DNA of 14,975 bases, taken from contig JAJXTQ010000008.1 of assembly GCA_021783685.1 (NCBI GenBank), positions 1 to 14,975 of the forward strand, in the 5' to 3' direction. This document shows positions 5,464-14,975 of this stretch, one piece after another. Both the position numbers and the translations under genes were made by a program. This DNA comes from Pseudomonadota bacterium. Its GTDB lineage: Bacteria > Pseudomonadota > Gammaproteobacteria > UBA5335. The notes under the pieces were generated by a model. It worked only from the letters and a program-made list of their open reading frames with translations, ran no database searches and was not told where the DNA came from. Position 1 is the first letter of the stretch. Each line of letters opens with the position of its first letter.

Positions 5464-6789
5464 ATGAAGTATTCCAAGCTCTTGCTGACCCTGGTCGCCG
5501 CCTTTGCCGCCCAGGCCAACGCCGGTTCCGTCATCGACGGCCCGATGTCGTTCAACCCCATTTCCGGCTCCGCCTACGGCATGGAAGCCGACCCCAGTGT
5601 CCCGACCGCACCGTGGGTCGTTCCTGAAGGCTACGTCCAGACCATCGTCTCCGACGAAACCGACCTCAACATCTATGTCGCCAACGACTGGAACGACATG
5701 AACACCGTCAACGAAACCGGCAAGCACGCCGGCCGTTACCTCTACCGCACCCACGAAGTCCGCGGCGGTGCCATCGGTGACGACCGCAACTCGCTGCGCG
5801 TCGACGGTGGCAGCGGTGGTTCCGTGTCCGTCGTCGACCTGAAGTCCGGCGTCGCCAGGGAAGTCGTCGGCCGCACCGACTGGGAAGCGCTCGACGGCAT
5901 CGTCTGGACCCCGTGGCAGACCGTTCTGTTCGCCGAAGAGGCAGGCACCGCAGCCCGTCCCGACCCGGATGCGCCCAACGCCACAGCCGGTCTGCTGTAT
6001 GAGCTCAAGCTGGACAAGCATGACCCGACCAAGGCCGAAAGCGTGACCGTGCGTCCCTTGCTGGGCGCACTGGCCCACGAAGGCATCGAGACCGATGCCG
6101 CCGGCAACGTCTACGTCATCGACGAAGACCGCCGCGGCTCGATTTACAAGTTCGTGCCGACCAGCTACGGCGACCTCTCCAGCGGCCAGCTGTATGCGCT
6201 GAAGGTCAAGGATGGCGCCAAGACCGGCGCCGCCGAATGGGTCGCGCTCGACATGGCGCAGGCCCAGATCCGGGCCAACGTCGCGGCGCGTGCCGTCGGC
6301 GCGACCGAGTACTGCCGCCCCGAGGACCTCGAGCGTCTCGGCAGCACCCTATACGTCGCGCTGACCTGCGAGGACGTCGACAATCCCGCCAACACCAGCG
6401 GCCGCGGCGCCGTGATGGCGGTCGAACTGGGCGACAAGCCGGTCGTCAGCTACGTCGTCGCTGCCGGCAAGAATGCGCCGATCGAAGACCGAACCAACCA
6501 GGTGACCGGCTTCAAGGGCGCCGACAACCTGGCCAGCGGGCCCGACGGCAAGCTGTGGATCGTCGAAGACAACGCCTACAGCGACATCTGGGTGTACGAC
6601 CCGCGCTCGAAGGACGCCAATGGCGACGGCTACCGCGACGGCGTGCATCTGTTCGCCTCGCTGAAGGAGAACACGGCCGAGGGTTCCGGCATCTACTTCG
6701 GCAAGGATCCGCACACCCTGTTCGTCAACGTGCAGCACTCCGCCACCGGCAACGACAAGACGATGGCGATCACCAAGCGCCGCAAGTAA
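5464..6789 (+). CDS. secreted PhoX-family (DUF839) phosphatase-like protein
   Basis: 441-residue exported beta-propeller-like protein. A Sec signal peptide occupies residues 1-20 (MKYSKLLLTLVAAFAAQANA). Family segments appear in order: GRYLYRTHEV, GGSVSVVDLKSG, WEALDGIVWTPWQTVLFAEE, HEGIETDAAGNVYVIDED with GSIYKFVP, EYCRPEDLE, GADNLASGPDGKLWIVEDN, and a late NVQHSATGND. These match PhoX-type proteins, Ca/Fe-dependent phosphatases that release phosphate from organic esters in the periplasm. Characterised PhoX enzymes usually carry a Tat signal and are longer; this one has a Sec signal, so cofactor loading may differ or the protein may not be a true phosphatase. GGGAG lies 9 nt before the ATG. 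It appears monocistronic, with a strong terminator directly after it. I see no clear Pho box upstream. Confidence 0.85.
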   Translation: MKYSKLLLTLVAAFAAQANAGSVIDGPMSFNPISGSAYGMEADPSVPTAPWVVPEGYVQTIVSDETDLNIYVANDWNDMNTVNETGKHAGRYLYRTHEVRGGAIGDDRNSLRVDGGSGGSVSVVDLKSGVAREVVGRTDWEALDGIVWTPWQTVLFAEEAGTAARPDPDAPNATAGLLYELKLDKHDPTKAESVTVRPLLGALAHEGIETDAAGNVYVIDEDRRGSIYKFVPTSYGDLSSGQLYALKVKDGAKTGAAEWVALDMAQAQIRANVAARAVGATEYCRPEDLERLGSTLYVALTCEDVDNPANTSGRGAVMAVELGDKPVVSYVVAAGKNAPIEDRTNQVTGFKGADNLASGPDGKLWIVEDNAYSDIWVYDPRSKDANGDGYRDGVHLFASLKENTAEGSGIYFGKDPHTLFVNVQHSATGNDKTMAITKRRK

Positions 6790-6887: not shown

Positions 6888-6916
6888 GTTGAGTAGTGAA
6901 GTGGAGGGGCGATGTC

Positions 6917-8476
6917 TTGGACATCCAGACACTAGAAAAGACGAAGCAGCAGTGGCAATCTGCCGCTGACCAGATGCCTCAGTTGATCTGCCTGCTCGAC
7001 GGCGAGGGGCGGTTGCTCCACGTCAACCGGACCATCGAATGGTGGCGGCTCGGCAGCGTCGGCAGCGTCAGGGGGCGCTTCCTGCACGACATCCTGCACC
7101 CCGGCTGCACCGATCCCGAGTGCTATTTCACGGCGCTGTGGCAGGAGATGGCGAGCGCCTGGCAGCAGGGACGCCGCGTCGAGCTGGACGCATTCGACCC
7201 GACGCTGAACCGCCACTTGTGCATCCGGTCCCAGCCGCTCGTCGGGCCCGGGCGCGGCCAGACGCGCGGCGCAGCGGACCTGCATACCGTCATGATCGTC
7301 GACGACATCAGCGATCTCAAGCAGACCGAGGCGGGGGTCCAGCGGCGCCACGACGAACTGGCGCGCCAGGTGGCGCACGAGGCGCAGCAGCGCGCGCTCA
7401 GCGAGGAAATGCAGGCGCGGCTGCTGACCATTCTCGAGCGGACCACCGACTTCGTCGCCATGGCCGATACCTCGGGATCCCTCCTGTACCTCAATCCGGC
7501 AGGGCGGGCGATGCTCGGACTTGGTGCAGCGGACGACATCGCCGACCGGAAACTGTGCGAGAACGCCGACCCGGATGTCCGGCAAGTCCTCCGGGATGTC
7601 GCCATCCCGACAGCGGTCGAACATGGCGTGTGGTCCGGCGAATCGACGATGCGCGACAGCACAGGCCAGGAGATCAACGCCTCCCAGGTCATCATCGCGC
7701 ATCGCGGGGCGGACGGGCAGATCGACTGCATCTCCACCATCCTGCGGGACATCAACGAACGGGTCAGGACCGAGCGTGCCCTGCGCGAGTCCTGTGAGGA
7801 ATTGCGGCAGCTTTCCGGCATGCTGGTGTCGATCCAGGAAGACGAGCGGCGCCGGATCGCGCTCGACCTGCACGACGGGCTGGGGCAGTCGCTCAGCCTG
7901 ATCAAGCTCGCCGTCGAGAACACGGCAGATCTGGTCGTCGACCAGCAATACGACGCCGTGCTCGGCGCCCTGCAGCAGATCGTTCCCCGTCTCAAGGCGG
8001 CACTCGCCGATGTGCGGCGCGTGTCGACCGAATTGCGGCCCTCGATCCTCGACGACCTGGGCATGCTGCCGACGCTGAACTGGTTTTTCCGCGAGTTCGA
8101 AGCCGTGTGCGGCCGGATGGCGATCGAGAAGGACCTCTGCATCAGCGAGGAGGACGTGCCGCCTGCCTTGAGGATCACCCTCTATCGCGTGCTGCAGGAG
8201 GCGACCAGCAATATCGTCAAGCATGCCGCTGCCACGCGGATGCGGGTCAGCCTCCAGCGCGACGCCGAGGCGCTGCATCTGACGATCGAGGACAACGGAC
8301 GCGGTTTCGAACCGCTGAGCGTGTGCGCGCAGTGCGACGGATGCGGTACGGCCGTATGCCGCGGCATCGGGCTGGTCAGCATGAAGGAGCGGGTGACGCT
8401 TTCGGGCGGGCACTACCGGCTCGAATCCAGCCTGGGGGCGGGCACCCGGATCCATGCCTGGTGGCCGCTCGGGTAA
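6917..8476 (+). CDS. soluble PAS-PAS sensor histidine kinase (NarL-type, HisKA_3)
   Basis: 519-residue cytoplasmic kinase with no membrane segment. PAS 1 spans about 18-110 and contains LHPGCTDPECYF with C64 and C69. PAS 2 spans about 168-285 with a typical ending (ISTILRDINERVRTERALRES). The HisKA_3 dimerisation domain has H319 in RRRIALDLHDGLGQ, and LRPSILDDLGM follows. The HATPase_c domain is intact: E428 and N432 in the N box, D459-N460-G-R-G in G1, GIGLVSMKERV in G2. Between G1 and G2, in the ATP lid, sit four cysteines (C470, C473, C476, C481), which is unusual and may bind a metal or sense redox state. I chose the TTG at 6917 because GGAGGGG (6903-6909) lies 7 nt before it. A GTG at 6896 lacks such a site, and the ATG at 6912 is out of frame. 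The response regulator downstream is the likely partner. Confidence 0.92.
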   Translation: MDIQTLEKTKQQWQSAADQMPQLICLLDGEGRLLHVNRTIEWWRLGSVGSVRGRFLHDILHPGCTDPECYFTALWQEMASAWQQGRRVELDAFDPTLNRHLCIRSQPLVGPGRGQTRGAADLHTVMIVDDISDLKQTEAGVQRRHDELARQVAHEAQQRALSEEMQARLLTILERTTDFVAMADTSGSLLYLNPAGRAMLGLGAADDIADRKLCENADPDVRQVLRDVAIPTAVEHGVWSGESTMRDSTGQEINASQVIIAHRGADGQIDCISTILRDINERVRTERALRESCEELRQLSGMLVSIQEDERRRIALDLHDGLGQSLSLIKLAVENTADLVVDQQYDAVLGALQQIVPRLKAALADVRRVSTELRPSILDDLGMLPTLNWFFREFEAVCGRMAIEKDLCISEEDVPPALRITLYRVLQEATSNIVKHAAATRMRVSLQRDAEALHLTIEDNGRGFEPLSVCAQCDGCGTAVCRGIGLVSMKERVTLSGGHYRLESSLGAGTRIHAWWPLG

Positions 8477-8499
8477 AGCCGCTGCAGCGGCCACCAGGC
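8456..8499 (+). terminator. 14-bp hairpin spanning the kinase stop codon
   Basis: GCCTGGTGGCCGCT (8456-8469) and AGCGGCCACCAGGC (8486-8499) are a perfect 14-bp inverted repeat with a 16-nt loop holding the TAA (8474-8476). A 14-bp palindrome, GCCGCTGCAGCGGC (8478-8491), is nested in it. There is no T tract, so it may end transcription with Rho, protect the 3' end, or limit read-through toward the regulator gene. Confidence 0.5.
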
Positions 8500-8547
8500 C
8501 TGAGGCATGGCCCGCGTGGCAGGAAAACGGCTCGCAGATCCTGAAGT

Positions 8548-8623
8548 GCCCTACAGTGTCCGCTGTAACGAACAATACATTGCGAACCCTAGGATGAATT
8601 GCTGGCTGGCAGATTAGACTCAG
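8548..8623 (+). promoter_or_regulatory. promoter module upstream of the response regulator, shared with the copper oxidase
   Basis: GCCCTACAGT (8548-8557), AATACA (8574-8579) and TAGACTCAG (8615-8623) recur upstream of the multicopper oxidase gene at 11185-11260 with exactly the same spacing. TAGACT resembles a -10 box with no good -35 box before it, as in activator-dependent promoters; the two outer blocks would then lie at about -75 and -50. TACAG (8552-8556) and CTGTA (8563-8567) also form a dyad. The leader to the ATG at 8768 would be about 140 nt. Recurrence and spacing are seen directly; the role is inferred. Confidence 0.65.
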
Positions 8624-8767
8624 CCCAAGGCTGTCTTCGCGTAATGATCCTCGCCCAGTTCAGTGGGGCTTGTGGTCTGCAGCATCGATGCTAGACATTA
8701 AACTGAATTGTGATCGCCCTGTCCTCCGGGCCGGGCCAGCAGGTCGGTAAAAGGGAAGGTGTACATC

Positions 8768-9427
8768 ATGGTGGCTGGAAAGCAGTCGGTTTATATCGTC
8801 GAAGACCAGAACCTGGTGAGGGCCGGGCTGAGGGCCCTGCTGGCACAGGAAGCCGACCTCGAGATCATCGGCGAAGCCAACAACGGTCGCGACGCCATCC
8901 ATGCCATCGGCACGCTCTTGCCCGACCTGGTGCTGATGGACCTCACCATGCCGGGCATGAACGGCATCGAGGCCATGCACGCCATCAAGCGGCGCAATCC
9001 AGAAACCCGCATGCTCGTTCTCACCATCCACAGGACCGACGAGTACATCCATGAAAGCCTGCGTGCTGGCGCCGACGGCTACATCCTCAAGGATGGGACC
9101 CATGACGAACTGCTGCTGGCGATTCGCAGGGTGCTCGACGGCAAGACCTATCTGAGCCCGGACGTTTCTGACAAGGTCATTCACGGCTTTCTGGGCACCG
9201 GCAAGACGGCCGCCTCCAACGGGGGCTGGGATTCGCTGACGCTGCGCGAGCGCGAGGTGCTGAAACTCATCGCAGAGGGCCATCCGAACAAGTACATCGC
9301 CAAATACCTCTGCCTCAGCATCAAGACCGTCGAGACGCACCGCTCCAATCTGATGAAAAAACTCAACCTGCACAATGCGTCGATGCTGACCAGCTACGCC
9401 ATCGGCAAGGGACTGGTAGGCGTCTGA
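8768..9427 (+). CDS. NarL/FixJ-family response regulator
   Basis: 219-residue DNA-binding response regulator. The receiver domain (about 7-120) has the acidic pair E12-D13, phosphoacceptor D58 in LVLMDLTMPGMNG, T86 and K108. A LuxR-type helix-turn-helix covers about 155-215 (LTLREREVLKLIAEGHPNKY, then LSIKTVETHRSNLMKKL). It would bind DNA as a dimer when phosphorylated. I chose the ATG at 8768 because AAGGGAAGG ends 8 nt before it; a GTG at 8759 lies inside that ribosome binding site. The gene sits between two NarL-type histidine kinases, one upstream on the same strand and one convergent, so it may receive input from both. Its promoter module is shared with the multicopper oxidase gene, which makes autoregulation and control of that gene plausible. 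Confidence 0.95.
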   Translation: MVAGKQSVYIVEDQNLVRAGLRALLAQEADLEIIGEANNGRDAIHAIGTLLPDLVLMDLTMPGMNGIEAMHAIKRRNPETRMLVLTIHRTDEYIHESLRAGADGYILKDGTHDELLLAIRRVLDGKTYLSPDVSDKVIHGFLGTGKTAASNGGWDSLTLREREVLKLIAEGHPNKYIAKYLCLSIKTVETHRSNLMKKLNLHNASMLTSYAIGKGLVGV

Positions 9428-9445
9428 CCCTTCTGGTTCTGGTCC

Positions 9446-9463
9446 GGCCGCTTCAGCGCGGCC
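9446..9463. terminator. hairpin between convergent regulator and membrane kinase genes
   Basis: GGCCGC (9446-9451) and GCGGCC (9458-9463) form a perfect 6-bp stem with a 6-nt loop in the 95-nt gap between the two stop codons. No T tract is present. It is a plausible shared terminator, moderately supported. Confidence 0.4.
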
Positions 9464-9522
9464 TGATGCGCTCGGCGCGGACGTTGCCCGCTGCATCAAG
9501 TCTGCCGCGCACCTGAACCGCG

Positions 9523-10881
9523 TCACAGGCTCCAGTAGGCATACAGCGTCGTTCCGCACCCGGCATGGTGCGATGCCCTGAATGTCCCGCCCGACAGGGT
9601 CGCCAGTTCCTCCATGCGGGCGAGTCCATGGCGCAGCTGCGGGTCGATGTTGGACAGTGGAATCGCCGTGCTGTCGCGCGCCTCGGGAGGGGCGTCGTCA
9701 ATCATCAGGCTGAGGGTCTTGCCGTCGCGCCATAGGGCGAGCGTGATCCGGTCCGCAAGCGGGTGCTGTGCCATGTCGTCGAGCACCGACGTGACGATGC
9801 GGTAAAGGATGATCTTCAATTGCGAGGGAATGTCCTTTTCCCTCAGCGTGATCTGCTGCTCGACCCTGACGGGCGGATGCCGCTGCTCGAACGCGCGGCA
9901 CAGGAGCTGCAGCGTGAGCAGCAGACCGAAGTCGTCGATGCTCGAGGGCCGCAACTCGCAGGCGATCGAACGCACGTCGCGAATCGCGCCCTGCAATGCG
10001 GGGATGATCGCGTCGACCGCGCGCCGGTTCGGGCTGCCTTTCTTGTCATGGGCCTTGATGGTCTCGACGTGCAGCTTGATGCCGCTCAGGGTCTGGGCAA
10101 GCCCTTCGTGCAGGTCGAGGGCGATCTTCTTCTTGTACGTTTCCTCGTTTCTCAGCATGTGGGCGGACAGCGCTTCGAGGGTACTCGATCGCTCGCGTAT
10201 GGTGTTCTGCTGGCGGTCGATGATATGGCCTGCGCGCCACACGATCAGCACCACGACCGCATACATCGTCGACAGGATGAGGAGGGCGCCGAGGATGGTG
10301 ATGAATTCGGTGCGCTCGGTCTGCTGGGCCAGGTGATCGACATCGGTGTAGATCTCGAACACGCCATGGACCGGCCCATCCGGGCCGTCTCGCACCGGCA
10401 GGTAGGTCTGCATCAGGTTTTCATCTTCGGTACCGCCGTCGAAATAATTGAAGCCGTCCCGGTAGATCAGGTTGCTGGACACGTTGCCGCGGATTGCGGC
10501 CTTGAATCCCTCATTGCCGCCCTGATCCCTGCCCACCTGGATTTCCCGGTTCGAGAAAACGACCGTGCCCTGGCGGTTGAACAGATTGACCCTGACCACC
10601 GTCTTGTCGACCAGCAGAGTCCTGACCGTGCGCGACAGTTCGGGGGGAAGTGGATGGCGGGCGAGACTTTCCGGGCGCAGGTCCTCGGTGGCACGCAGAT
10701 GGTCGAGCAGCAGGGGACTCAGGGAGGTCAGCGCGGTCTGCGCCAGGGCCAGGTTGCTCCGCTCGGCAATATGGGAAATGCCATCGATGGCGACCTGGCG
10801 GTAGAACCAGACCAGCACGACCAGGGTGGCGAGGAAGGCGACGAGACTCGCCACCGAAAAGTAGCGCAATAGCCTGAACAT
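9523..10881 (-). CDS. membrane sensor histidine kinase homologue with degenerate ATP site
   Basis: 452 residues. Transmembrane helices lie at about 10-28 and 195-216 and flank a periplasmic sensor region (about 30-190) that contains VVRVNLFNRQGTVVFSNREI, a Cache/PAS-like pattern. A HisKA_3 domain follows, with H258 in KKKIALDLHEGLAQT and LRPSSIDDFGLL. The HATPase_c domain aligns with that of the PAS-PAS kinase but has lost key residues: the N-box Glu and Asn are S365 and D369, and G1 reads IDDAPPE instead of DNGRGF. The end (HGLARMEELATLSGGTFRAS, CGTTLYAYWSL) is still recognisable. It may therefore be a pseudokinase that works as a phosphatase, as a heterodimer partner or as a sensor adaptor. 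AAGGG lies 8 nt before the ATG. It is convergent to the response regulator and divergent from the multicopper oxidase gene. Confidence 0.9.
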   Translation of the reverse strand: MFRLLRYFSVASLVAFLATLVVLVWFYRQVAIDGISHIAERSNLALAQTALTSLSPLLLDHLRATEDLRPESLARHPLPPELSRTVRTLLVDKTVVRVNLFNRQGTVVFSNREIQVGRDQGGNEGFKAAIRGNVSSNLIYRDGFNYFDGGTEDENLMQTYLPVRDGPDGPVHGVFEIYTDVDHLAQQTERTEFITILGALLILSTMYAVVVLIVWRAGHIIDRQQNTIRERSSTLEALSAHMLRNEETYKKKIALDLHEGLAQTLSGIKLHVETIKAHDKKGSPNRRAVDAIIPALQGAIRDVRSIACELRPSSIDDFGLLLTLQLLCRAFEQRHPPVRVEQQITLREKDIPSQLKIILYRIVTSVLDDMAQHPLADRITLALWRDGKTLSLMIDDAPPEARDSTAIPLSNIDPQLRHGLARMEELATLSGGTFRASHHAGCGTTLYAYWSL

Positions 10882-10928
10882 TTGGGTGACCCTTTCCAGG
10901 ATGCAGCCCTCTCAAGTTAGCCAAACCC

Positions 10929-10951
10929 GCAGCGAAACGCGAGTTCGCTGC
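10929..10951. promoter_or_regulatory. 8-bp inverted repeat upstream of the membrane kinase gene
   Basis: GCAGCGAA (10929-10936) and TTCGCTGC (10944-10951) are perfect inverted arms with a 7-nt spacer, about 50 nt before the kinase ATG on the minus strand. It could be an operator or a leader hairpin. Confidence 0.4.
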
Positions 10952-11184
10952 AGAACACCCGGATGGATGCAGTCATCGGAAATCCGTGGCGGCTCGAAAG
11001 ACGGGGCGTGCGGAGAAATCGAGGCAGGACAAGGCTTGCAGCCCGTCCGACTGCAACCGACCGTGCGCTGACCATGGGCTCACGTCCGGTGAAAACAGGC
11101 AGGGCAGCTACAGGCTTGCCAGCCTCGCAAATACAATAAAGCCCGGAAGAAAACCCGGATGCCTGATCGACGCCGAAGCCCTTC

Positions 11185-11260
11185 GCCCTACAGTAAACAC
11201 CCTTGATCCAAATACAGGATCGTCGGGAGCGCAATCGCGCTTTCCCCTCTCTAGACTCAG
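11185..11260 (+). promoter_or_regulatory. promoter module upstream of the multicopper oxidase
   Basis: GCCCTACAGT (11185-11194), AATACA (11211-11216) and TAGACTCAG (11252-11260) repeat the module upstream of the response regulator at the same spacing (67 nt from the start of the first block to the start of the last). TAGACT is a candidate -10 box, with transcription starting near 11264 and a leader of about 78 nt. A dyad, AGCGC-AATC-GCGCT inside GGGA/TCCC-like flanks (11225-11246), lies where a -35 box would be expected. Confidence 0.65.
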
Positions 11261-11341
11261 GCCTACCACCCCTTGACGATTGCTGAACGCCTCTCGGACG
11301 CGCAGCTTCAGGAGTCGGGGGCACAGTCAGGAGGAAGCACC

Positions 11342-13198
11342 ATGAGTAGCCAAGACATCGACGACGCCTCTGCCACGGCTCCCGCCAGCACTGGCAGGCG
11401 GACTTTCCTGAAGGGGTCAGTCGTGGCTGCGGCTGCGCCGGCGATCCTGACCTCCCGCAAGAGCAGCGCGCAAACCGCGGGCTTTCCGGCGAGCCCGCCG
11501 GTGCAGGCCTGGGCCGAGGAACTGCCGCCACAGATCACGCCGATCCAGCCGGTTACAGCCCTCGACCCCGCACCCACGGCGGGGGCGAACCTCGCCCGCG
11601 GCGAATGCGGGCGGGCCGATCACCAGCGTTTCGCCGAGTTGGGCGGGAACCCGACCTACTACGTGCTGCGGGCGCGCGAGAATCCCGCCTGGGTGTTCAA
11701 TCCGGCGTATCCGCCCCAGCCTGTCTGGGGCTGGTCGGGGACGCCGGCGACCTCGACCAGCAGCGGGCCGACAAAAGGCAAGGGCGGCGGCGGCAAGGGC
11801 GGCCCCAAGGGCGCTCCGCCACCCGCATCGGACGTGACCGCGCCGGGCCCGACCTTCTTCGCGCGCTACGGCCAGCCGGTCATCGTGCGCATCGTCAACG
11901 AACTGCCGCAGAACCATGTCGGCTTCGGCTCGCCCGAGATCAGCACCCACCTGCACAACGCCCACAACCCGTCCGAGAGCGACGGGTTTCCCGGCGACTA
12001 CTTCAGCGCCTCGAAGGCGGGGCCGACGCTCACCATGCCAGGCGGCTGGCGCGACCACTTCTGGCCCAACGTCTACGCCGGTCTCGACGAGTTCGGGGGA
12101 ATCGGAGACCCGCGCGAGGCCTTGGGTACCTGCTGGTACCACGACCACACGCTGGATTTCACCGCGCCCAACGTGCTGAAGGGCCTGGTCGGCTTCTATC
12201 TGCTGTTCGACAACCTCGATTCGGGCAACGAGCGCGACCCCAACCCGGCCGCGCTGCGGCTACCGAGCCATCCCTACGATTACCCGCTGGTGTTCGGCGA
12301 CAAGCGTTTCGACGCGAACGGCATGCTGTTCTATGACCAGTTCGATCCCGACGGCGTCCTCGGAGACCAGGTCTGCGTGAACGGCAAGATCCAGCCGGTG
12401 CTGCGCGTCGCACGCCGCAAGTACCGCCTGCGCCTGCTCAACGGCGGGCCGTCGCGCTTCTATGCGCTGTCGCTGGCTGACCGGAATTTTCTCCTGCGCC
12501 CGTTCACCTATATCGCCAACGACGGCAACCTGCTGCCCGCCCCGATCGCGAACATGACGACGATCGATCTCGCACCTGCCGAGCGTGCCGACATCGTGGT
12601 GGACTTTTCGAGCTACCCGATCGGCACCGAACTCTATTTCGTCAATCGGCGGCTGCAGACCGAAACGCGCCGCTACGATGGTCTGACCGGTACCGGCACG
12701 CAGGTGCTGAAAATCGTCGTCGATCGCAATCCGCCCGAGCAGGATCTGAGTCGGGTGCCGGCGACGCTGCGCGCGATGCGCCCGCTGAGTGCCGAGGAGA
12801 TCGCCGCGGCGCCGGTCCGCCAATGGAATTTCGACCGCAGCAACGGGCAATGGACGGTCAACGGCGAGCTGTTCGACGTGTCAAGGGCACGCGCCACGCT
12901 CAGACGCGGCGATGCCGAGGTCTGGGAGTTCGTGAACAACGACGACGGCTGGGTCCATCCCATCCACATGCACTTCGAGGAAGGCCGGCTGCTCAGCAAG
13001 CGGGTGCAGGGCGTCGACGTCCCGATTCCGCTCTACGAGCGGGGACGCAAGGACGTCTACCACCTGCCGCGGGGGCCGAACACGGTCCTGCGGGTATTCG
13101 TGCGCTTCCGCGATTTCGAGGGCAAGTATGTCATGCACTGCCACAACCTGATCCACGAAGACCACGCGATGATGGTCCGCTTCGACATCAGGCCCTGA
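11342..13198 (+). CDS. Tat-exported three-domain multicopper oxidase (bilirubin oxidase/CotA type)
   Basis: 618-residue oxidase that would couple one-electron oxidation of phenols, metals or pigments to reduction of O2 to water. The N-terminus has a Tat signal (GRRTFLKGS, residues 18-26, followed by an Ala-rich segment). All four copper-ligand clusters are present: H203-L-H205, H267-D-H269, H539-P-I-H542-M-H544, and H599-C600-H601 with H605 and axial M610. The last one (HCHNLIHEDHAMM) is nearly that of bilirubin oxidases and close to CotA laccases. A Lys/Gly-rich insert (about residues 142-160, KGKGGGGKGG) interrupts domain 1 just before PGPTFFARYGQPV. I chose the ATG at 11342 because AGGAGG lies 7 nt before it; the frame is open from a TTG at 11273, but that would put the Tat signal inside the protein. 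A Sco-type chaperone follows by 39 nt, consistent with copper loading. The natural substrate cannot be told from sequence. Confidence 0.94.
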   Translation: MSSQDIDDASATAPASTGRRTFLKGSVVAAAAPAILTSRKSSAQTAGFPASPPVQAWAEELPPQITPIQPVTALDPAPTAGANLARGECGRADHQRFAELGGNPTYYVLRARENPAWVFNPAYPPQPVWGWSGTPATSTSSGPTKGKGGGGKGGPKGAPPPASDVTAPGPTFFARYGQPVIVRIVNELPQNHVGFGSPEISTHLHNAHNPSESDGFPGDYFSASKAGPTLTMPGGWRDHFWPNVYAGLDEFGGIGDPREALGTCWYHDHTLDFTAPNVLKGLVGFYLLFDNLDSGNERDPNPAALRLPSHPYDYPLVFGDKRFDANGMLFYDQFDPDGVLGDQVCVNGKIQPVLRVARRKYRLRLLNGGPSRFYALSLADRNFLLRPFTYIANDGNLLPAPIANMTTIDLAPAERADIVVDFSSYPIGTELYFVNRRLQTETRRYDGLTGTGTQVLKIVVDRNPPEQDLSRVPATLRAMRPLSAEEIAAAPVRQWNFDRSNGQWTVNGELFDVSRARATLRRGDAEVWEFVNNDDGWVHPIHMHFEEGRLLSKRVQGVDVPIPLYERGRKDVYHLPRGPNTVLRVFVRFRDFEGKYVMHCHNLIHEDHAMMVRFDIRP

Positions 13199-13237: not shown

Positions 13238-13936
13238 ATGAAAACAGACGACATGGACACGGCACGGCACGACCGCAGGGTCGTTCTGGCGGGCTTCGGC
13301 GCCGCCGCGTTCGGCCTGCTTGGGTGGCAGGGTACAGTGCTCAAGCCGAGGCCTGCGCAGGCCGCCGGGCGCATACCCGGGCGCCTTCCCAACCCGACCG
13401 TCATCACGCACGAGGGCAGGGCGCTCAGGTTCTACGACGACCTCGTGCGCGACAAGGTGGTCGCGATCAACATGACCTACGCCCAGTGCACCGCGAGCTG
13501 CCCGGCCACGATGGGCAACCTGCTGCAGGTGCAGAAGCTCCTGGGCGGGCGCATCGGGCGCGATGTCTTCATGTACTCGATCACGCTGTTCCCCGAAGTC
13601 GACACGCCGCAGGTGCTCAAGGCCTACGCGGAGAAATTCGACGTCGGGCCGGGCTGGCTGTTCCTGACCGGCGCACCCGACGACATCGAGTCGCTGCGGC
13701 GCGGACTCGGCTTCTGGGATCCGAATCCGGTGGTGGACGAAAACCGCACCCAGCACGCAAACATGATCCGCATAGGCAACGGCGCCTACGACCGCTGGGC
13801 GATGTCGCCCGGGCTGGTCAGTCCCGAGCAGATCCTCGCGGTCATCAACCACGTCGACCCCACCGTCGTGCACACCGCACACCCGCCTTCGGCCCCCGCC
13901 GCACCGCAGCCGGGCAGGGGAAGCGCCCCGACCTAG
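13238..13936 (+). CDS. Sco1/SenC-type copper chaperone
   Basis: 232-residue exported thioredoxin-fold protein. The copper-binding set of the family is intact: C84-x3-C88 in YAQCTASCPATMGNL, and H173 in TQHANMIRIGN. The N-terminus carries RR followed by a hydrophobic stretch (DRRVVLAGFGAAAFGLLGW), which may be a Tat signal or a membrane anchor. The C-terminus is a Pro/Ala-rich tail (PPSAPAAPQPGRG). Sco proteins deliver copper to, or reduce cysteines at, the CuA site of cytochrome oxidase. Here the gene lies 39 nt after a multicopper oxidase and no cytochrome oxidase gene is in view, so a role in maturing that oxidase is more likely. GGAG lies 8 nt before the ATG. Probably co-transcribed with its neighbour. 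Confidence 0.92.
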   Translation: MKTDDMDTARHDRRVVLAGFGAAAFGLLGWQGTVLKPRPAQAAGRIPGRLPNPTVITHEGRALRFYDDLVRDKVVAINMTYAQCTASCPATMGNLLQVQKLLGGRIGRDVFMYSITLFPEVDTPQVLKAYAEKFDVGPGWLFLTGAPDDIESLRRGLGFWDPNPVVDENRTQHANMIRIGNGAYDRWAMSPGLVSPEQILAVINHVDPTVVHTAHPPSAPAAPQPGRGSAPT

Positions 13937-14041: not shown

Positions 14042-14975
14042 ATGGCTTTCTACGACTTCAACGTGAATCTGAACGACCTCAAGAAGATCCTCGAGCAGAT
14101 CAGGATCGCCGAGGCGCACGCGGCGTTCGCCCACGACGCCACCGCCCCGCAGGTCGCCCTCGTTGACCTGGTGAGCCATGCGCTGGCGCCCGAAGGCCTG
14201 CGCACGGTCAGCGGCATCTACAACAACCTGCTTCCCGGCCAGGAGCTGACCGGGGCCGCCGACAACGTGATGCCGCGCCTGCTGCAGCCGGTCTACAACC
14301 CCGCCGAGATCCAGCCGGCAGGCTTCTTCGGACCGGGATCGCCCGCCGGGACGACGACGACGTCCTACGAGCAGACCGCCGGCGCCGTCTTCGATTCGCA
14401 GCCGCGCATCATCAGCAACCTGATCGTCGACCAGACCTCGAACAACCCGGCCGCGCTCGTGACGGCGCTGATCGTCGCCGGCTCGGCCGATCCCTACGGC
14501 GATGCCGCGCGCATCGCCGAAATGCGGCAGGCGCTGGCAGACGCGCCGGCTCAGGCCGCGGCGGCGCAGGCCGCGGAAGACGCGGCGCTGGCGGCCGCGG
14601 TGGTTTCCGCCGAGGCGGCTGCCGCCGCAGCGGCCACGGCGAGCGCACTGCAGGCGACTGCTGATGCCGATGCCCAGGCGGCGGCCGACGCCCAGGCTGC
14701 CGCCGCTACGGCGAACCAGGCCGTGGCCGATGCGCTCGCCGCGCTCACGGCGCTGCAAGGGCAGGGCGATCCGGCGGCCCTGGCTGCCGCGCAGCTGGCC
14801 TACGACGCGGCGGTGGCCGCGTCAAACGCGGCCGACGCGCTGGCCGCCGCGACCGCCGCGACGGCGGCCGCGTCGGCCGCGGCCGCCGTGACTGCCCAGG
14901 CCGCTGCCGACGCGGCACAGGCCCAGTCCGCTGCAGACCTCGCGGCCCTGTATGCCGCGATGACGCCGCTGACTG
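14042..14975 (+). CDS. N-terminus of a large alanine-rich, animal-heme-peroxidase-like secreted protein (partial)
   Basis: 311 codons are visible and the frame is still open at the right edge. There is no Sec or Tat signal. Residues 1-140 contain NLNDLKKILEQIRIAEAHA, GLRTVSGIYNNLLPGQELTG, AADNVMPRL and FDSQPRIISNLIVDQTSNNP. From memory this run is typical of the start of very large bacterial animal-type heme peroxidases with C-terminal calcium-binding repeats, exported by type I secretion; MopA Mn(II)-oxidising peroxidases belong to that group. The catalytic heme domain would lie beyond the window, so the call rests on the N-terminus only. Residues about 163-303 are more than half alanine, in AQAAAD-like repeats, probably a long helical or coiled-coil insert. 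AGGAG lies 7 nt before the ATG. The gene follows the multicopper oxidase and Sco genes and may belong to the same operon. Confidence 0.7.
   Translation, partial: MAFYDFNVNLNDLKKILEQIRIAEAHAAFAHDATAPQVALVDLVSHALAPEGLRTVSGIYNNLLPGQELTGAADNVMPRLLQPVYNPAEIQPAGFFGPGSPAGTTTTSYEQTAGAVFDSQPRIISNLIVDQTSNNPAALVTALIVAGSADPYGDAARIAEMRQALADAPAQAAAAQAAEDAALAAAVVSAEAAAAAAATASALQATADADAQAAADAQAAAATANQAVADALAALTALQGQGDPAALAAAQLAYDAAVAASNAADALAAATAATAAASAAAAVTAQAAADAAQAQSAADLAALYAAMTPLT

Follow-up and report, generated by a model that had tools for sequence, protein, structure and literature searches.

Two promoter regions on contig JAJXTQ010000008.1, one preceding the gene of a NarL-type response regulator (RR1) and the other preceding a multicopper oxidase gene, share three short sequence blocks at identical spacing. 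Does a single regulator act on both? The stretch analyzed (the window, 14,975 nucleotides) is Thiobacillus-like, and its oxidase is 90% identical, over the best segment, to the oxidase of Thiobacillus denitrificans UBA4768 (locus L001, genome G001). We favor, at a probability of roughly 0.7, a model in which RR1 would activate its own gene and a small secreted-oxidase regulon via heptamer boxes ca. 21 bp apart; the element probably marks one small control circuit. What was observed comprises the element and its conservation, its occurrence together with the regulator, the genes that it precedes, and the geometry of an inverted repeat (dyad) within it. Autoregulation and direct control of the oxidase had been proposed in a first-pass annotation of this DNA. 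This became the best-supported reading, given conservation across species, copies in regulator-bearing genomes, and the NarL-like dyad, but the autoregulatory part is limited to the window and G001. The blocks of that annotation are real but belong to a larger element: at the regulator promoter, block 1 makes up one half of a dyad, and the regulon appears to extend beyond two genes. The elements are located as follows.

8548–8557: block 1, GCCCTACAGT, of the regulator promoter; most of it falls in the dyad at 8552–8567.
8552–8567, no strand assigned: 7-2-7 inverted repeat TACAGTG-TC-CGCTGTA of the regulator promoter, opened by block 1.
8574–8579, plus strand: block 2, AATACA, of the regulator promoter.
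8587–8598, plus strand: CCCTAGGATGAA, a possible further box of the regulator promoter; G001 has CCCTACGATGAA at the same place.
8615–8623, plus strand: block 3, TAGACTCAG, of the regulator promoter; its TAGACT is the proposed −10 element, with a predicted start near 8627.
11108–11135, plus strand: upper box pair, CTACAG-N16-AATACA, before the oxidase gene; the equivalent G001 pair is at L001:136.
11185–11194, plus strand: block 1, GCCCTACAGT, of the oxidase promoter.
11211–11216, plus strand: block 2, AATACA, of the oxidase promoter.
11252–11260, plus strand: block 3, TAGACTCAG, of the oxidase promoter; proposed −10 element, with a predicted start near 11264.

The three blocks recur with one common offset of 2637 nucleotides, as first annotated, and both window copies lie in noncoding DNA. 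The pair at 11108–11135 repeats blocks 1 and 2 with the spacing shorter by one base; given this looser copy, the oxidase promoter would contain two box pairs. The next-best positions in the window mismatched 9 of the 25 block bases. To evaluate chance origin, the intergenic regions 8477–8767 and 10882–11341 were compared with 200 pairs simulated by a first-order Markov model, scored by adding up the lengths of all shared runs of at least 6 bases within 80 nucleotides. The observed sum was 25 (10 + 6 + 9); simulated pairs had a mean of 10 and a maximum of 16, and none of the 200 reached the observed value. The bases between the blocks differ, as had been noted: the identity of the two 76-mers is 33/76, while 20 random sequences of equal composition reached best values of 42–45. 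With low overall identity and long shared runs, the signal comes from the pattern of blocks, not from general similarity. No Rfam model matched at E values up to 0.5 across positions 8400–11400. A σ70 consensus promoter was likewise not found in the region (0 versus 0.6 expected), which fits activator dependence.

Comparison with the upstream regions of G001 showed that blocks and spacing are kept at both promoters. The G001 oxidase promoter (L001) has no mismatch in the 25 block bases and spacing identical to that of the window; its identity to the window is 38/47 in the core and 12/13 in the −10 region, falling to 16/59 further upstream and 33/79 in the leader. At the G001 RR1 promoter (L076), CTACAG, AATAC, and TAGACTC are found at the window spacing, with 7 of 25 block bases different; here the identity is 24/45 in the core, 9/13 in the −10 region, and 68/143 in the leader.

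The core of block 1 is a heptamer, TACAGT(G). In the regulator promoter it forms a dyad: two inverted heptamers, bounded by TAC and GTA, are separated by 2 bp. TAC-N10-GTA occurs only once, at 8552–8567, in all 14975 bases of the window. NarL sites are 16 bp long and have the same 7-2-7 geometry, with TAC and GTA at their ends; the NarL heptamer is TACYYMT, to which TACAGTG does not conform. Dyads of this form were also found in relatives. The RR1 promoter of G001 contains TACAGGA-TT-TGCTGTA, and three loci, G001:C27, G032, and G049, have TACAGTGTTCGCTGTA, identical to the window dyad at 15 of 16 positions, before a transglycosylase gene. The transglycosylase gene of these loci precedes a gene for a protein with two receiver domains and, according to Pfam, no DNA-binding domain (receiver-receiver gene). 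A dyad is present in seven of the nine receiver-receiver loci, 51–84 bp before the transglycosylase start, and absent from the loci of G038 and G028:C188. Over ten half-site positions, it has one mismatch in G034, G050, and G028:C187 and two in G008; the G008 dyad, weak alone, is at a distance of 51 bp, equal to that in G034 and G050. Among the other loci (L001–L074, 1.34 Mb) there were no exact copies of the dyad and 18 copies with at most one mismatch.

Distribution of the element was studied in a genus set of 56 genomes, in which the regulator was called from an RR match at E ≤ 1e-60. The NarL-type regulator is present in nine of the genomes and the oxidase in two; the receiver-receiver gene is found in eight, all among the nine regulator carriers. 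The genome scan that had been proposed was run on these relatives and bore the element out. With the distance to the −10 element left free, a loose pattern returned six sites in three genomes, all of them regulator carriers, and one control hit. A strict 24-base pattern allowing up to three mismatches matched the G001 oxidase promoter alone (1/56 genomes); it was rejected as too strict, because the relatives have another −10 distance. An order-wide search with CTACAGT-N13-16-AAATACAGG, also set aside, matched 2 of 399 genomes, against one control hit. Of these two matches, the second, in G064, falls inside a transporter-like reading frame and was taken as chance.

The direct-repeat form of the boxes stands before oxidase, peroxidase, PEP-CTERM, exoprotein, and multicopper oxidase genes. 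G028 has sites before a PEP-CTERM gene, the oxidase gene, and the counterpart of the window's large peroxidase gene. Seven genomes have boxes of the same form behind the receiver-receiver gene. The gene that follows codes for a PEP-CTERM protein in G008 and G032, a multicopper oxidase in G034 and in its near-identical, cut-off counterpart in G050, a large exoprotein in G038 and G001:C27, and an exoprotein-related protein in G049; a second G032 site precedes the large exoprotein of that genome. Multicopper oxidase genes follow the exoprotein gene in G032 and G001:C27, and in G034 a second one follows the first. In G008 and G034, the regulator, the histidine kinase HK2, the receiver-receiver gene, and the boxes form a single cluster. 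In these two genomes (L107, L109), genes with prepilin-type N-termini lie ahead of the regulator gene (Pfam N_methyl in the one tested), suggesting a link to secretion or pili. The regulator gene of G038 (L082, G038:C91) has one TAG within its frame.

A profile (R1) was built from 12 copies found in the window, G001, G028, and G032 and applied to held-out genomes with a cut-off of E ≤ 1. It matched five of six regulator carriers (G008, G034, G038, G049, and G050) and 4 of 47 others (Fisher p 2e-4, kinship ignored), and each match in a carrier was no more than 200 bp from the receiver-receiver gene. The E values were 3.0e-5, 3.6e-4, 0.019, 0.22, and 0.7. A second profile (R2, 19 copies) gave 14 matches under E 0.004 in eight of the nine carriers; all 14 were training copies, so the result shows only that nothing else in the 56 genomes scores equally. 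At E values up to 1, R2 also matched three regulator-free genomes (G014, G031, and G033). Several matches are unexplained or were taken as chance: G001:C27:22762 (R1 E 0.049) is overlapped by a long open frame of the opposite strand, and G031:C3 (R1 0.0122, R2 0.67) and G014 (R2 0.047) lie inside reading frames; this inspection left out G005, G006, G042, and G031:C34 (R1) and G033 (R2).

The promoters fall into two classes that follow the type of regulator. RR1 and a second type, RR2, differ in the recognition-helix region, which reads KTxETH in RR1 and KTVEKH in RR2; the RR1 letter occurs in 5 of the 120 best homologues, the window protein included. Promoter positions were counted from the start of CTACAG, and the −10 variants and block spellings were picked after viewing the sequences. 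Box 2 begins 20–23 bases past this start. The −10 element begins at +64 in all four RR1 promoters (those beside RR1) and at +83 to +86 in ten others, nine of them in RR2-only genomes; the G008 promoter gave no −10 match. Ten of the 11 promoters of the long class have an extra block (GAGTG, GAAGTG, GCAGTG, or GAGCG) at 42–44, and GAGCG is also present at 39 in both short oxidase promoters. Since the last box is ca. 42 bp from the −10 element throughout, one step of ca. 21 bp, or two helical turns, appears to have been gained or lost. The oxidase promoter itself is of the short class in the window and G001; both have RR1, close by or at least in the same genome. In G028, where RR2 is the only type, it is long. 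The association of short promoters with RR1 (four) and of long ones with RR2-only genomes (nine) had a p value of 0.0014, kinship ignored.

The genes around the two window promoters are, in order, HK1, RR1, HK2 (reverse), multicopper oxidase, SCO, and large protein.

6896–8476, plus strand: HK1, a PAS-PAS histidine kinase (HisKA_3, HATPase_c; Pfam); the neighbor of RR1 in G001 is 81% identical.
8768–9427, plus strand: RR1, NarL-type response regulator with receiver and GerE domains (Pfam; NarL and VraR alignments); the ATG start was chosen, and an alternative GTG upstream, at 8759, is possible.
9523–10881, minus strand: HK2, a second HisKA_3 histidine kinase (Pfam); its relatives adjoin RR or receiver-receiver genes.
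11342–13198, plus strand: multicopper oxidase with a TAT-like signal; the Pfam match is weak, below cut-off.
13238–13936, plus strand: SCO1/SenC protein (Pfam).
14042–14975, plus strand: N-terminal part of a large protein, cut off by the window end; its G001 counterpart is described below.

RR1 has the receiver-then-GerE order of the NarL/FixJ family (Response_reg, E 1e-27; GerE, E 2.8e-19), and its closest solved relatives are NarL (1a04, E 1.5e-37) and VraR (5hev, E 3.1e-38). It scored under every NCBIfam equivalog cut-off checked (160.7 bits with the NarL model, 250 needed). Its best 120 homologues in environmental data are all at least 74% identical, and a blastn comparison of the gene with plasmids gave partial matches alone, none reaching 80% coverage. 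The window's part of the large protein (14042–14975) has no Pfam match; the G001 counterpart combines an animal-type haem peroxidase domain with RTX repeats (Pfam), and the gene after it encodes an ABC transporter. The C-terminal part of HK1, like its G001 counterpart, has a four-cysteine cluster (CAQCDGCGTAVC) in the ATPase domain that could provide ligands for a metal or iron-sulfur center. Between RR1 and HK2, the end of a minus-strand frame (9453–9530) resembles a G001 gene at the same place (L106:9393-10409) with cytochrome c domains; a cytochrome gene may have been lost here, the window keeping only its end. A PhoX-domain protein is encoded upstream of HK1 (5464–6789; G001 equivalent 88% identical and at the same place), and two frames at 219–2334 resemble, by eye, V-type ATPase subunits B and D.

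In the proposed circuit, HK1 and HK2 are the likely kinases, and either would phosphorylate RR1, which would then bind heptamers TACAG(T/G)(G/A). RR1 would occupy two sites at its own promoter, the 7-2-7 inverted repeat and a further box; its targets at the operon of the oxidase (multicopper oxidase, SCO, and RTX haem peroxidase) would be two pairs of direct-repeat boxes. The outer blocks had been taken for activator sites at about −75 and −50, and their positions fit. With the promoter-proximal box ca. 42 bp before the TAGACT −10 element, RR1 would recruit polymerase to this weak element; because a good −35 element is lacking, transcription is proposed to depend on the regulator. A more far-reaching proposal, which we consider doubtful as a whole, is that a subset of Thiobacillus has a dedicated and so far undescribed regulon serving the oxidation of metal (Mn or Fe) outside the cell and the associated matrix, which a NarL-type regulator controls through TACAG heptamers ca. 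21 bp apart. Its promoters would gain or lose one 21-bp box, the −10 element shifting by two helical turns, depending on whether RR1 or RR2 is present. A single switch would have two different oxidase clusters as its alternative outputs, one with the TAT-like oxidase and the RTX peroxidase, the other with a giant exoprotein, several multicopper oxidases, and PEP-CTERM proteins. Manganese or iron as the substrate of the oxidases is a guess based on the domains present.

Several points weigh against control by RR1. RR1 as the binder, activation, the start sites, the extent of the operon, the kinase, and the signal are all inferred. The conservation contrast at the RR1 promoter is weaker than at the oxidase promoter, and patchy. 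The genomes are mutually related, and counts from them are not independent. The best regulator-free R1 match (G031, 0.0122) outscores two of the five held-out matches in carriers (E 0.22 and 0.7), which rest on position. G055 has the regulator, yet shows no motif match and no receiver-receiver gene. At E ≤ 3, R2 matched none of five regulator carriers outside the genus; three of these have a receiver relative, which in G091 (L137) is followed by a diverged copy, and the loose pattern gave no match in the other two receiver loci (L138, L139). RR1 and RR2 would both need the same heptamer, yet their recognition-helix regions differ. Finally, with the patterns used, the motif was not found upstream of RR relatives in nine other loci (L077–L085), where a lone CTACAGT precedes the RR gene in L082 and L083. 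Autoregulation thus seems peculiar to the RR1 lineage: its pattern is visible only in the window and at the matching regulator of G001, and elsewhere the dyad is on the receiver-receiver operon.

An alternative is that another DNA-binding protein reads the boxes, the RR1 gene and the oxidase both being its targets. The binding and regulatory roles given to RR1 are predictions, and the lack of the motif before the regulator gene in RR2 genomes speaks for such a protein. The boxes, however, adjoin RR, HK2, or receiver-receiver genes and track the presence of the regulator among the 56 genomes, and the dyad has the geometry of a NarL site. The receiver-receiver protein has no DNA-binding domain in Pfam; other co-occurring DNA-binding proteins were not searched for. 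We consider this explanation unlikely. That one promoter is a recent duplicate of the other, with functionless outer blocks, would account for three blocks in the same order and spacing, but is highly improbable: bases between the blocks are unmatched, the oxidase-promoter blocks persist in another species where the flanks have diverged, and similar elements precede several unrelated genes in other genomes. Chance resemblance, conceivable for blocks this short, has a negligible probability in view of the simulations and the conservation in relatives, in line with the first-pass annotation.

Among described systems, regulators of the NarL and VraR type and their heptamer sites come closest; shared are the receiver and GerE domains and a 16-bp dyad with TAC and GTA ends. 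The present system differs from NarL in the heptamer (TACAGTG versus TACYYMT), in the target genes, and in the equivalog score of RR1.

Three described systems offer further parallels. PEP-CTERM genes linked to the PrsK/PrsR two-component system likewise share a promoter element; as described there, it has a TTTACA-containing motif, a sigma-54 site, and an NtrC-like regulator, PrsR (Haft 2006, PMC1569441), whereas the present regulator is NarL-type and the −10 element TAGACT-like. In Pseudomonas putida, two kinases and one regulator (MnxS1/MnxS2/MnxR) are reported to control manganese oxidases, with an SCO-family gene in the oxidase operon (PMC8218464); the likeness consists in two kinases, one regulator, multicopper oxidases, and an SCO gene. 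MopA proteins are described as manganese-oxidizing haem peroxidases with animal-type haem peroxidase and haemolysin-type calcium-binding domains (PMC6247904); the G001 counterpart of the large protein has the same domain content, which alone was compared, the window holding the N-terminal part only. The kind of regulator and the site geometry are already known, and the operator is apparently undescribed: among the papers listed by a literature search, none describes this element in its title or the start of its abstract.

The matching promoter pair thereby becomes a defined, testable regulon. An operator is proposed for a NarL-type family with many close environmental relatives, and it is tied to secreted multicopper oxidases, a MopA-like peroxidase, and PEP-CTERM proteins in a sulfur oxidizer. 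If correct, the model would provide a second control route for PEP-CTERM genes, apparently without sigma-54 (as judged by eye), and a natural series of two- and three-box promoters in which the joint evolution of box number and regulator type could be followed.

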